Assembly (NCBI RefSeq): GCF_003755175.1
Contig: NZ_RKHX01000001.1
Location: 930,001 to 994,000 of the forward strand
From: Cellulomonas sp. PhB150
GTDB taxonomy: Bacteria > Actinomycetota > Actinomycetes > Actinomycetales > Cellulomonadaceae
Length of the DNA stretch: 64,000 bases
Direction: 5' to 3'
Shown here: piece by piece, positions 48,971-52,684 of the stretch
Layout: each line of letters starts with the position of its first letter
Numbering within the stretch: the first letter of the stretch is position 1
Translations under genes and position numbers: made by a program
The notes under the pieces: generated by a model
Databases searched by the model: none
What the model saw: the letters and a program-made list of their open reading frames with translations, nothing else
What the model was told of the DNA's origin: nothing

Positions 48971-49003
48971 TTACCTAGTACCGGGGTCGATTTACCTAGT
49001 ACC
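48971..49003. repeat. Two 12-bp direct repeats 21 bp apart
   Basis: TTACCTAGTACC occurs at 48971-48982 and 48992-49003, two helical turns apart, in an otherwise very GC-rich spacer. It looks like a dimeric operator for the unit at 49162-52639. The regulator is not adjacent. Confidence 0.6.
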
Positions 49004-49161: not shown

Positions 49162-49848
49162 ATGAGGCGGTACATCTTGGCGGGACTCGTTCTCGCCGTC
49201 CTGACGACGTTGCTCGTCGTCCTCTCCGACGCGCTCGGGCTCGACACCGAGGGCATCGCGCTGCTCGGTGGCGCGCTCGGCGGAGCACTCGGCCTCGTGC
49301 CGGACCGCTCCCCCGCGCAGCGCGCGGGGGCCTTCATCGTCGGCTTCGTCGCGGCCTGGGTCGGCTACGGCCTGCGGGCCGCGGTGCTGCCCGACGCCAC
49401 GGCGGGACGCGCGATCGCGGTCCTGGTCGTGCTCCTGGTCTGCCTCGCCGTCGGTGCCGCCACCCGCGGCCGCCTGCCCCTGTGGGCGACGCTTCTCGGC
49501 GCCGCCGCGATGGCGGGCGCCTACGAGACCACGTACGCCGCCGACCCGACGGCGTTCATCTCCTCGTCCGCCGCGACGGCCACCTCGATCCTCGTCGCCG
49601 CCGGCGCCGGTTTCGTCGCCACGTCGCTGCTCGGCCCGCAGGTCGAGCGCGAGCGCGAGAACGAGCGCTCCGCCGCCCGGCACGCCGAGACCGCGCCGGC
49701 GACCGAGGTCGCTCCCGAGCTCGAGAACGCCCACGCGATGGCCGTCGAGACCCCCGCGAACGGCACCCCCCAGGTGGGGTCGACCGCCGAGAACCGTCGG
49801 CCCGGCATCGCCCCGTACCTTCCCCTGCAGCCCCGCCCGGAGGCCTGA
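49162..49848 (+). CDS. Multi-helix membrane protein of unknown function
   Basis: A 228-residue protein with five to six hydrophobic segments in the first 170 residues, rich in Gly and Ala (LLGGALGGALGLVP, then FIVGFVAAWVGYGL). A hydrophilic cytoplasmic tail rich in Glu, Ala and Pro follows (about 175-228). I recognise no family. ATG 49162 has GAGGTGG upstream; frames starting earlier run through the hairpin. It is followed after one nucleotide by the repeat protein gene, so the two proteins probably act together. Confidence 0.75.
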   Translation: MRRYILAGLVLAVLTTLLVVLSDALGLDTEGIALLGGALGGALGLVPDRSPAQRAGAFIVGFVAAWVGYGLRAAVLPDATAGRAIAVLVVLLVCLAVGAATRGRLPLWATLLGAAAMAGAYETTYAADPTAFISSSAATATSILVAAGAGFVATSLLGPQVERERENERSAARHAETAPATEVAPELENAHAMAVETPANGTPQVGSTAENRRPGIAPYLPLQPRPEA

Positions 49849-49849
49849 C

Positions 49850-52639
49850 GTGCGACGCACCACCCTCACCACCGCCGCCGCCCTGGCCGCGGTCCCCCTG
49901 CTCGTCGGGACCTCCGCCGCGCCCGCCCTCGCCGCCGACAGCGGCGACGTCTCGGTGACCAACACCGAGACCGTCCAGGCGCACCTCGACGCCAGCGGCT
50001 CGTTGCAGGACGCCCGCATCTACGAGCAGCTCGCGCTCAGCGGTCACGGCACGACGACGATCACCAACCCCGTCTCCACGCACGGCCTGCGCAACCTCGA
50101 CGGCTTCGGCGGGTACCGCGTCGTCGACGGCAACGTCGTCGCGCAGGTCAGCGTCGACGGCGAGCGGCGGCTGCGCTCGGTCAGCGACTACGACAAGAAG
50201 CTGCCGCTGTCGGTGAAGATCACCTACACGCTGGACGGCAAGCCCGTGAAGCCGGGCGCGGTCGTCGGCAGGTCCGGCCTGCTCGAGGTCCACTTCACGG
50301 TGACGAACGAGACGGCCGAGCAGCAGTCGGTGACGTACGACGACGGCCACGGCGTGATGAAGACCTCGACCGAGACCACCGTCATCCCGATGATCGGCCA
50401 GCTCGTCACCGTGCTGCCCTCGTCGTTCACCGCGGTGCAGTCCGACGAGGCCGGCATGGCCGGCGACGGCCGCGGCGGCACGCAGATGACGTTCCAGATG
50501 ACGCTCTTCCCGCCCATCGGCTCCCCCACCGCGGAGTTCGGCTACTCGGCGCGGATCAGCGACGGCGTGGTGCCCTCGGCATCGCTGACGTCGATGCCCG
50601 TCTCGCCGCTCGACTACCCGTCGTTCAAGGGCGGCTCGGCCAGCTACAAGGCGGGGGCCGCCAGCGGCGTGGCCCTGACCGCCGGGTCGGCCGAGATCGA
50701 CAGCAACCTGCTCAAGCTGCACGACGGCGCCGCGCAGCTGCTCGGCGGTCTGCTGCAGCTCAGCGACGGCGCGGGCCAGCTGTCCGACGGGCTGAACGAC
50801 GACGCCAAGCCCGGGTCAGCCGAGCTCGCCGCGGGCCTCAACGACCAGGCGAAGCCCGGGTCCGCCGACCTCGCCGCGGGGCTCAACGACAAGCTCGCTC
50901 CCGGGGCCCACCAGATCGCCGACGGCCTGGCCACCGCCGCCCCCGGGACGGGCGACCTCGCGGACGCCCTGGGCGACCAGCTCGCACCCGGAGCCGGCGC
51001 CATCGCGGGGGGGCTCAACGAGCAGCTCGCGCCCGGCCTGGGCGACCTCGCAGACGGCCTGAACAGCGAGCTCGCCCCCGGGGCCAAGGAGCTCGCGACC
51101 GGGCTGAACAAGGACGCGAAGCCCGGTGCGGCCAAGCTCGCCGCCGGCGCGTCCGCACTCGACGACGGTCTCGCTGCGGCCCTGGCCGGCGCACCGACGC
51201 TCGTCGGCGGCGTGGCCCAGGTGTCCGCCGGGCTCCAGAGCGTCGACGACGGTCTCGCGCTGCTCAGCTCGACCGTCGGGGGCCTGTCGAGCAACGACGA
51301 CGTCGTGAAGCTCACCGCCGGACTGGCATCGATCCGCGCCGGCCTCGCCGCCGACGGCGACCTTCGCCAGGGGGTCGCGGCACTGCAGGCGGGCGTCTCG
51401 GGGACATCCGACACGAAGGACGGCGCCGGCACCGGCGGGGCAGGCCGCCTGCTCTCCGGTGTCGGCGCTGGCGCGAGCGCGAGCGCGGGTGACATCGCGG
51501 CGCAGATCGCGAAGCTGACGGCGGTCTCCCAGAGCCTGAGGGCGGCCCAGCAGGACGCGGACGCGGACGCTGTCGACGCCTCGATCAAGGCCCTGGGCGG
51601 CATCGCGCAGTCGGTCGGGGTCGCCGGGGGCACGGTGAGCGCCGTCGGTGGCAAGCTCACCGCGCTCGGGCCGTCGTTCGACAAGGTCAGCGGCGGTCTC
51701 GCGCAGCTGGCCGGGGGCTCCGTCGCCGTCGACGAGGGCACGAAGAAGCTGTTGGCGACGGTCGTCCAGGGCGTGCAGCAGGCCATCGGCGGCGCGACGG
51801 ACGTGCCGCAGAAGGACCCCAGCAAGACGACGCTCCGCGGCGGTGTGCACGGCCTGCAGGCCGGGGCCGGCCAGCTGGGTGCCGGCGGGGCCGACCTCGC
51901 CACCGGCCTGGGCAAGCTCGCAGCGGGCGCCTCAGCGCTCAAGGCGGGCTCCGCCGACCTCTCGACCGGCATCACCAAGGCCGCTGACGGCTCGGCGAAG
52001 CTCTCGACGGGCGCCGACGCCGCGGCTGACGGGGCAGCCCAGCTCTCGGACGGCGCGAACCAGCTGGCCGACGGCTCCGGTCAGCTCTACGCGGGCATGC
52101 TCGAGGCAGCGACCGGATCGCACACGATCGCGGTCGGCGTCGAGAAGCTGTCGACCGGCGCCGACGCACTCTCCGGCGGTCTCGACACGGCCGCGGCCGG
52201 GTCGACCAAGCTCGCCGGCGGGATCTCCGACGCGGCCAGTGGTTCGCAGCAGCTCGCCGACGGCATCGCCTCGGCCGCCGACGGGTCGAAGAAGCTCGCC
52301 GACGGCGCCGGCAAGGCCGCGGACGGGGCCCCCGCCCTGGTCGACGGCTCGCAGCAGCTGTCCGACGAGGGCACCTCGAAGCTGGTCTCGACCGGCGAGG
52401 AGACGGCCCAGTCCTACGGCGCCGAGTACGCGGTCCTGGCCGCGGGCGCCGAGCGCGCCTCGGCCGAGGGCATGGCGGAGGGCGCGCCGCAGGGCGCCGT
52501 GGGTGCCACGGCGTACTCGATCGAGATCGCCGGCGCCGATGGTGAGGGCGCCAGCTCGCTGGGCCGCCTGATCCTGGCGATCGTCCTGTTCGTGGGCGGC
52601 GCGGGCATCGCGACGGTCGTCCGGCGCCGCTGGGTCTGA
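49850..52639 (+). CDS. Secreted, C-terminally anchored repeat protein (YhgE/Pip-like repeats)
   Basis: A 929-residue exported protein. The signal peptide is at residues 1-29 (ending SAAPALAADS). A beta-rich domain occupies about 30-270. Eight tandem repeats of about 15 residues (LN-x-x-x-x-PG-x-x-x-LA-x-G) lie at about 315-433. A helical stretch follows, then many 7-residue units (ADG-x-x-QL and kin) at about 690-850. One membrane helix (LILAIVLFVGGAGIATVV) with a short Arg tail ends it. The 7-residue units resemble those in YhgE/Pip and MmpL-linked proteins, but the multi-helix export domain of YhgE is absent. GTG 49850 follows the upstream stop directly. The function is unknown; an envelope stalk or scaffold is a guess. 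Confidence 0.82.
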   Translation: MRRTTLTTAAALAAVPLLVGTSAAPALAADSGDVSVTNTETVQAHLDASGSLQDARIYEQLALSGHGTTTITNPVSTHGLRNLDGFGGYRVVDGNVVAQVSVDGERRLRSVSDYDKKLPLSVKITYTLDGKPVKPGAVVGRSGLLEVHFTVTNETAEQQSVTYDDGHGVMKTSTETTVIPMIGQLVTVLPSSFTAVQSDEAGMAGDGRGGTQMTFQMTLFPPIGSPTAEFGYSARISDGVVPSASLTSMPVSPLDYPSFKGGSASYKAGAASGVALTAGSAEIDSNLLKLHDGAAQLLGGLLQLSDGAGQLSDGLNDDAKPGSAELAAGLNDQAKPGSADLAAGLNDKLAPGAHQIADGLATAAPGTGDLADALGDQLAPGAGAIAGGLNEQLAPGLGDLADGLNSELAPGAKELATGLNKDAKPGAAKLAAGASALDDGLAAALAGAPTLVGGVAQVSAGLQSVDDGLALLSSTVGGLSSNDDVVKLTAGLASIRAGLAADGDLRQGVAALQAGVSGTSDTKDGAGTGGAGRLLSGVGAGASASAGDIAAQIAKLTAVSQSLRAAQQDADADAVDASIKALGGIAQSVGVAGGTVSAVGGKLTALGPSFDKVSGGLAQLAGGSVAVDEGTKKLLATVVQGVQQAIGGATDVPQKDPSKTTLRGGVHGLQAGAGQLGAGGADLATGLGKLAAGASALKAGSADLSTGITKAADGSAKLSTGADAAADGAAQLSDGANQLADGSGQLYAGMLEAATGSHTIAVGVEKLSTGADALSGGLDTAAAGSTKLAGGISDAASGSQQLADGIASAADGSKKLADGAGKAADGAPALVDGSQQLSDEGTSKLVSTGEETAQSYGAEYAVLAAGAERASAEGMAEGAPQGAVGATAYSIEIAGADGEGASSLGRLILAIVLFVGGAGIATVVRRRWV
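50792..51149 (+). repeat. Eight 45-bp coding repeats with Pro-Gly
   Basis: Successive units read LNDDAKPGSAELAAG, LNDQAKPGSADLAAG, LNDKLAPGAHQIADG, a shorter degenerate unit, then LGDQLAPGAGAIAGG, LNEQLAPGLGDLADG, LNSELAPGAKELATG and LNKDAKPGAAKLAAG. The regular Pro-Gly should kink the helix every 15 residues. Confidence 0.85.
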
Positions 52640-52650
52640 CCGGGCTGACC

Positions 52651-52684
52651 GAAGGGGGCGCGGCCTACGGGCCGCGCCCCCTTC
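52651..52684 (+). terminator. Strong terminator of the envelope unit
   Basis: A perfect 15-bp stem (52651-52665 with 52670-52684) and TACG tetraloop lies 11 nt after the stop of the repeat protein gene. Confidence 0.8.

Follow-up and report, generated by a model that had tools for sequence, protein, structure and literature searches.

A gene pair of Cellulomonas sp. PhB150 encoding a probable extracellular hairpin stalk with matched arms and a small membrane partner

Results and Discussion

Two adjacent genes of the actinobacterium Cellulomonas sp. PhB150, P0001 and P0002, were analysed in a stretch of 64,000 nucleotides (contig NZ_RKHX01000001.1, positions 930,001 to 994,000), which is referred to as the window. 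P0001 encodes a small membrane protein of 228 amino acids (aa), and P0002, which starts with GTG, a secreted protein of 929 aa with two types of repeats, one containing Pro-Gly and the other consisting of plain heptads. These repeats are likely the two arms of one hairpin, not separate modules, as indicated by an exact relation between arm lengths and by structure prediction. P0002 rather probably serves an envelope complex, perhaps one linked to an exporter, as a stalk that spans the wall; its architecture is likely, and its function is suggested by context. The predicted architecture, the matching of the arms, the pairing of the genes and the exchange of the upstream partner were computed. 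How transporters of Gram-positive bacteria pass their substrates through the thick wall is poorly understood, and a separate, length-matched stalk that many representatives of the phylum encode beside transporters or a common membrane module is a concrete and testable candidate.

Matched arm lengths

Arm lengths were measured between fixed anchors (arm 1, P257 to G461; head, G461 to G665; arm 2, G665 to G833) in 51 aligned full-length orthologs, which comprise the window protein, 19 proteins from named loci and 31 from further genomes. The full region was taken from 36 of the 47 genomes matched in the class and family samples described below, leaving out weak hits and, for example, G075, G134, G385 and G263. 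From 56 extracted proteins, four duplicates (L102, L103, L093, L104) and one open frame (L089) were dropped; L008, where the contig ends, had been excluded earlier. The lengths of arm 1 and arm 2 are tightly correlated (r 0.977), also on 50 phylogenetic contrasts (r 0.986), where 35 of 37 non-zero pairs have the same sign. The head does not grow with the arms (-0.36 on contrasts). Beyond this correlation the arms follow an exact rule. With a1 and a2 as the arm lengths and n15 as the count of 15-residue units, each of which has a one-residue Pro skip, a1 - n15 - a2 equals 29 in 38 of the 51 orthologs. Shuffling arm 2 among the sequences (20,000 times) gave 4.2 exact matches on average and 13 at most. 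Reduced to 29 distinct length states, 16 fit the rule (after shuffling, 1.1 on average and at most 7), and 29 of 41 orthologs fit once one near-uniform genus is removed. Three alternative anchor sets yield a modal difference in 37, 38 and 35 of the 51 proteins, the innermost set giving a difference of 0 (35 of 51). Without the skip correction, the best constant fits at most 15 orthologs, and an anchor moved inside the head lowers the fit to 19 of 51. Across the orthologs, arm 2 has 56 to 238 residues, a number divisible by seven in 45 of 51. Among the exceptions to the rule, the value is 1 in three cases (two Nocardioides and one other genome), 30 in two, and 23, 31, 33, 36, 40, 49, 50 and 61 in one each.

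Matched change in regions about 200 residues apart is required by a closed hairpin and is hard to explain otherwise. Since both arms would begin and end in the same base, their lengths must match, and a repeat would be added or removed in the two at once; the skip residue of the Pro-Gly 15-mer would add nothing to the matched length. The rule thus explains the odd 15-residue units, which consist of a double heptad plus one extra Pro ahead of the central Gly, and it provides unusually clean evidence, drawn from sequence alone, for an extracellular hairpin. In P0002, the Pro-Gly motifs of the repeat region lie at residues 321, 336, 351, 365, 380, 395, 410 and 425 (spacings 15, 15, 14, 15, 15, 15 and 15), and about 40 LxxG motifs follow each other at distances of mostly 7, 14 or 15 residues. 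A preliminary description of the locus had listed eight Pro-Gly repeats of 15 residues and, as a separate class, a long array of 7-residue units. The number of Pro-Gly units was right, except that one of them has 14 residues; the division into two classes has to be given up in favour of two arms of one structure. The accompanying suggestion that stalk length follows repeat number agrees with the joint change of both arms. At 0.15 nm per residue, the 168 residues of arm 2 in the window would reach about 25 nm, and the law-fitting orthologs would reach about 10-36 nm. This is on the order of the generally known thickness of a Gram-positive wall, which the stalk may thus span.

Predicted structure and base fold

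An AlphaFold2 (AF2) model of P0002, based on 20 sequences (mean predicted local distance difference test, pLDDT, 71.5; predicted template modelling score, pTM, 0.48), was judged from its reported secondary-structure elements and alignments rather than from coordinates. Its order of elements is a beta domain (residues 34-250), long helices as far as residue 480, shorter ones up to 646, long ones again from 662 to 873, a strand (884-893) and a helix (899-918). Parts of the head, short stretches within residues 77-87 and both chain ends including the anchor helix have a pLDDT below 50. In this model, both ends of the hairpin likely sit in one membrane-proximal beta base. A Foldseek search of the PDB with the model gave 36 matches at E <=0.001, all of them mu-homology chains of adaptor or COPI complexes by title and aligned range (best E 6.5e-6; target TM-score about 0.3-0.5; root-mean-square deviation, rmsd, about 6-10). 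VIA-align, whose best Z is typically 7-8 for models without a clear match, reached Z 12.5 against a mu-homology domain (213 aligned residues, rmsd 4.6, 11% identity), and all 50 matches listed, which likewise depend on the AF2 model, were mu-homology chains. These alignments span residues ~24 to ~895, with the last aligned residue at 894-897; thus, the strand that follows the stalk takes part in the base fold. The first Foldseek match of another kind, the Umb1 umbrella toxin particle (E 1.2e-3, rmsd 67), was discarded as a likeness of long helices only.

The base of P0002 differs from the mu-homology domain of clathrin and COPI adaptors in being extracellular and bacterial, and in having a stalk of about 630 residues ahead of its last strand. 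Sequence profiles of the base found no mu-homology domain in Pfam or the PDB. As no sequence profile supports kinship, the likeness may be convergence. The papers listed in the literature search include none on a bacterial mu-homology domain. The base thus raises the question of whether the fold has bacterial roots or two origins.

Several features of P0002 were read directly from its sequence. The signal peptide and the terminal hydrophobic helix bear out the earlier proposal of a secreted, C-terminally anchored protein, and the complete orthologs also have a hydrophobic C-terminal tail, which in most of them finishes with basic residues. The only NCBIfam model above its cut-off is TIGR03057, which describes LxxG heptad repeats (93.4 bits, cut-off 18.6, E 3.4e-27); Pfam models gave nothing above cut-off. 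A PDB sequence search with the full P0002 profile returned mostly coiled coils. The top match of the family profile was a chain named sc-apCC-6-SLLA (E 3.8e-8), which, judging by its name, we take to be a designed antiparallel coiled coil; composition alone could explain this match. Viral contigs gave 38 pattern matches and no relative, plasmids gave no match, and a viral fold library none at E 0.001.

Conservation of the gene pair

A single base separates the stop codon of P0001 from the start of P0002, so that the coordinates confirm the two-gene unit with a 1-nt gap of the preliminary description. Both proteins are probably made from one message. Searches with P0001 found 20 loci, 17 in Cellulomonas, two in Nocardioides and one in Actinotalea. 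A frame with heptad repeats adjoins the P0001 homolog in all 19 that have enough downstream DNA. In 17 of these, a candidate start of the second gene lies 1 nt past the first stop; the two others, both from Nocardioides, have short overlaps. Across the named loci, conservation is good in the base and the C-terminus and poor in the head; the repeat region extends over 357 to 680 residues. In a sample of the class comprising 246 genomes, 28 have a match to the base-domain profile, and a P0001 homolog lies upstream in all 22 strong loci, the window among them. Eight weak loci have no P0001 homolog in a short stretch; three of the eight have an MMPL gene upstream in longer DNA. In a sample of the family, the profile of each gene matched 20 of 150 genomes, 19 of which are common to both; the exceptions are a weak base match alone (G263) and a partial P0001 match alone (G308). 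The base match of G385 is divided over two contigs. Among the genomes listed from the same genus, 8 of 17 have the pair. The two genes are usually present or absent together, and the earlier proposal, which depended on conservation of the pair, is upheld on this point by the strong loci and by the genomes in common.

A few loci deviate from this pattern. In one genome (G372:C1:310685-311293), the match to a P0001 homolog crosses one TGA, possibly a frameshift or a pseudogene. In long LxxG-rich proteins of one genome family (L052-L056), the match to the base profile is mainly to its second half; no P0001 homolog was found in the short stretch examined there. A literature search, limited in terms and coverage, found no paper on the P0002 family, and one may exist.

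P0001 and the upstream partners of distant relatives

AF2 predicts six helices for P0001 (pLDDT 56). Pfam models gave nothing above cut-off, DUF1097 was not matched at E 1, and it was not among the Pfam matches of 18 members of the P0001 alignment (A2) either. A profile of P0001-like proteins that includes distant members (A7), however, aligns in hhalign with the profile of DUF1097-like partners of distant relatives (A5; 95.5%, E 1.5e-8, 160 columns), the target being the profile of these partners and not Pfam's own DUF1097 model (PF06496). The narrower A2 profile reaches 76%. Controls stayed at 0.3% or less, with 0.3% each for the MMPL membrane bundle and the YhgE membrane domain; they hold few or single sequences, and the probabilities are a rough guide. 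Thus, the earlier statement that the multi-helix partner belongs to no known family stands with regard to Pfam and has to be qualified by the link to DUF1097-like proteins. The genome that contains the window has no DUF1097 match at E 0.001. A likeness to an MreC/MreD pair was rejected, as the P0001 profile matched MreD only at E 0.28 and the genome lacks an MreD match at E 0.001. A fold search with the P0001 model of pLDDT 56 (best Z 8.6, followed by ALMT channels at 8.0-8.5) was not used, since scores of this level carry no meaning for helical bundles.

In a phylum sample of 296 genomes, a broader base profile found 58 places in 48 genomes; six of these places lack sufficient DNA on the upstream side. 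At the 52 assessable places the adjacent upstream gene is DUF1097-like in 19, MMPL in 16 and P0001-like in six (one being the window); 11 places have none of these. Some tallied loci are part of the profiles used and match by construction (5 of the 19 DUF1097-like, 8 of the 16 MMPL, and the window for the P0001-like group). These five DUF1097-like and eight MMPL loci were also run against Pfam, where L131 stayed below the cut-off (20.0 of 24.6). Pfam confirmed MMPL in all 13 large open reading frames (ORFs) tested, 10 of which belong to the 16, and placed DUF1097 above the cut-off in five of six DUF1097-like ORFs; the small P0001-like ORF upstream at L168 had no Pfam DUF1097 match. The lengths of neighbouring ORFs are those of stop-to-stop frames and hence upper limits. 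In three of the 13 MMPLs, which come from two genome families, an extra C-terminal membrane tail matches the profile of P0001-like proteins at 88.7%. Two of the 11 places without a partner deserve mention: in G591, a genome of 1.7 Mb, a P0001-like domain and the base share one frame with few stalk repeats (L125:823-2724, 25.5 bits), and at L180 there is a weak P0001-like ORF (10.3 bits). The stalk is thus connected with a module of six helices and, in several lineages, also with a transporter of the MMPL type. One genome of 2.7 Mb (G047; L086, L166-L169) contains six base-domain matches with differing upstream partners.

Proposed function and alternative explanations

In the proposed mechanism, P0002 would be exported via its signal peptide and form an extracellular stalk anchored in the membrane. 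The chain would build most of the beta base, run outward as a long helix to the variable head, return as a second long helix, add the last base strand and end in the membrane helix. P0001 would be its six-helix partner. By context in distant relatives, the stalk would be an accessory of an envelope export complex, either of the MMPL/RND type or with a DUF1097-like module, and its mode of action would resemble that of tripartite-pump hairpin adaptors or of the tube that the MmpL5 coiled coil is proposed to form. We infer physical contact with the partner, spanning of the wall and a role in export. A bolder version, which we consider quite unlikely, is that hairpins standing side by side form an alpha-helical tube through the thick wall, as a Gram-positive answer to tripartite pumps, with a mu-homology-like base, an MMPL or DUF1097-like channel that feeds the tube, and paired repeat gain that sets its length. 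If this were true, a fold that is known from the vesicle adaptors of eukaryotes would have a bacterial counterpart in the base.

Several observations weigh against a wall-spanning stalk linked to export. The exact length rule is broken in 13 of the 51 orthologs, and at L101 arm 2 is 21 residues shorter than in nine relatives of the same, near-uniform genus while arm 1 is unchanged. AF2 confidence is low for the model of P0001 and, in P0002, for the head and the anchor helix. None of the three partners was found in 11 of the 52 relatives, and in the genome of the window all 15 MMPL matches lie outside the window, so that none adjoins the pair. The extra tail occurs in only three of the 13 MMPLs tested, and compared directly with the DUF1097-like partners it reaches 1.3%, which makes the link through the MMPL tail weaker. 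For DUF1097 itself, we know of no established function.

The main rival is a stalk for surface display that has no part in export. The hairpin would serve only to present the variable head beyond the wall, where it could act as an adhesin, a phage receptor or a sensor, and the membrane partner would help in assembly. This would account for a poorly conserved head whose length is independent of the arms and for the lack of an MMPL gene next to the pair in the window genome, and the phage receptor YueB, according to the available part of a review (PMC9863714), has a large ectodomain able to span the wall. The MMPL genes that immediately precede the stalk gene in 16 of the 52 assessable relatives speak against display, as does the extra P0001-like membrane tail on three of 13 Pfam-confirmed MMPLs, and we regard it as unlikely on balance. 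A ruler of wall thickness, or a structural link that ties the membrane to the wall and has its length adjusted to the wall of the given species, is improbable: the arms vary while base and C-terminus are conserved, and the predicted lengths are on the order of known wall thickness, but Pfam detects no wall-binding domain in P0002, and arm 2 varies by a factor of more than three (70 to 238 residues) among species of Cellulomonas, whose walls are presumably similar.

A relation to YhgE/Pip proteins such as EsaA and YueB was considered as well. These are Gram-positive membrane proteins with a long extracellular region, and the YhgE of the genome itself matches the same LxxG heptad model as P0002. 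The ectodomain of YueB is long enough to span the wall (PMC9863714), and those of EsaA are elongated and able to span the peptidoglycan (PMC9600267), as far as the available parts of both sources state. TIGR03057 is a repeat model, however, and a match to it is insufficient for membership in YhgE/Pip. TIGR03061 (pip_yhgE N-terminal) did not match P0002, and TIGR03062 (pip_yhgE C-terminal membrane) matched neither P0001 nor P0002. This is informative because the true YhgE/Pip protein encoded elsewhere in the genome matches both (155.7 and 188.3 bits), and the earlier statement that the YhgE/Pip export domain is missing is thereby corroborated. Together with the 0.3% against the YhgE membrane domain, the missing models rule out membership. 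P0002 differs further by its predicted beta base, its single C-terminal anchor and the six-helix partner on a separate gene. A YhgE/Pip protein split over two genes, with the heptads on one and the multi-helix part on the other, is hardly credible: the one plus five membrane helices of YueB around its long ectodomain, as given in the available part of PMC9863714, resemble the sum of P0001 and P0002, and the heptad model is shared, but the family models and the profile comparison with the YhgE membrane domain speak against it, and an intact YhgE is also present in the genome.

Comparison with known hairpin proteins

The wall-spanning stalk proposed here resembles periplasmic adaptors of the AcrA, HlyD and MacA type in carrying a helical hairpin on beta domains. 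In tripartite-pump adaptors, the hairpin coiled coils lengthen or shorten by heptads in both helices, according to the available part of PMC4446572. P0002 shares this feature, since in the predicted structure both ends of the hairpin lie in one base and, by the length rule, the arms covary in heptads. In contrast to the adaptors, its anchor is C-terminal, its base has another fold and there is no outer membrane to reach; Pfam searches of the P0002 sequence at E 1 found no adaptor family (lipoyl or beta-barrel). Set beside P0002 from the literature alone, mycobacterial MmpL5/MmpS5 also has an antiparallel coiled-coil hairpin, which is proposed to form an alpha-helical tube (PMC12501195, available part). 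There the hairpin is an insertion in MmpL5, whereas P0002 is a separate anchored protein on a base of its own. The arms of SMC proteins, whose functional and natural lengths obey periodic constraints according to the available part of PMC5344682, are a further case of hairpin arms; these proteins are intracellular ATPases, and no relation to P0002 is claimed. One alignment of the DUF1097-linked group offered no clear anchors between arms and tip.

Features and flanking elements

Table 1. Position of the two genes, the parts of P0002 and neighbouring elements (window coordinates unless a locus is named)
Feature	Position	Strand	Basis or remark
P0001, small polytopic membrane protein (~six helices), remotely DUF1097-like	49162..49848	+	sequence, hhalign, AF2
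P0002, secreted, C-terminally anchored stalk protein	49850..52639	+	sequence, domain models, AF2
Signal peptide, residues 1-29, ending ALAA	49850..49936	+	read from sequence
Beta base domain, residues 34-250, mu-homology-domain-like fold	49949..50599	+	AF2 (residues ~70-100 low confidence), Foldseek, VIA
Outgoing hairpin arm, residues 257-480	50618..51289	+	AF2 helices 257-376 and 382-480; length law
Eight Pro-Gly units, residues 315-433, on outgoing arm	50792..51148	+	one unit of 14 residues, the others of 15
Variable distal head, residues 461-665, far end of hairpin	51230..51844	+	AF2 short helices, partly low confidence
Returning arm, residues 662-873, plain heptads	51833..52468	+	AF2 helices 662-744 and 750-873
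C-terminal strand, residues 884-895, appears to complete base fold	52499..52534	+	AF2 strand 884-893; structural alignments
Membrane anchor, helix 899-918, then Arg-Arg-Arg	52544..52636	+	sequence, AF2 (pLDDT <50 there)
Two direct copies of TTACCTAGTAC, 21 nt apart, 5' of gene pair; operator-like element	48971..49002	+	exact-match search
Perfect 14-bp inverted repeat, TACG loop, directly past P0002 stop; terminator-like hairpin without T run	52652..52683	.	sequence
Tailed MMPL frames, 975-999 aa, each directly upstream of stalk gene	L166:3306-6302, L170:3507-6431, L171:1245-4241		

A terminator scan that required a T run found no terminator after P0002, where the inverted repeat is located (Table 1). 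The two copies of TTACCTAGTAC are the only exact ones in the whole genome of 3.8 Mb, and none are expected in shuffled versions of the window. Exact copies also lie upstream of the pair in 13 of the 20 named loci, including those of related Cellulomonas, and variants occur in others. The TTACCTAGTAC pair is a possible operator.

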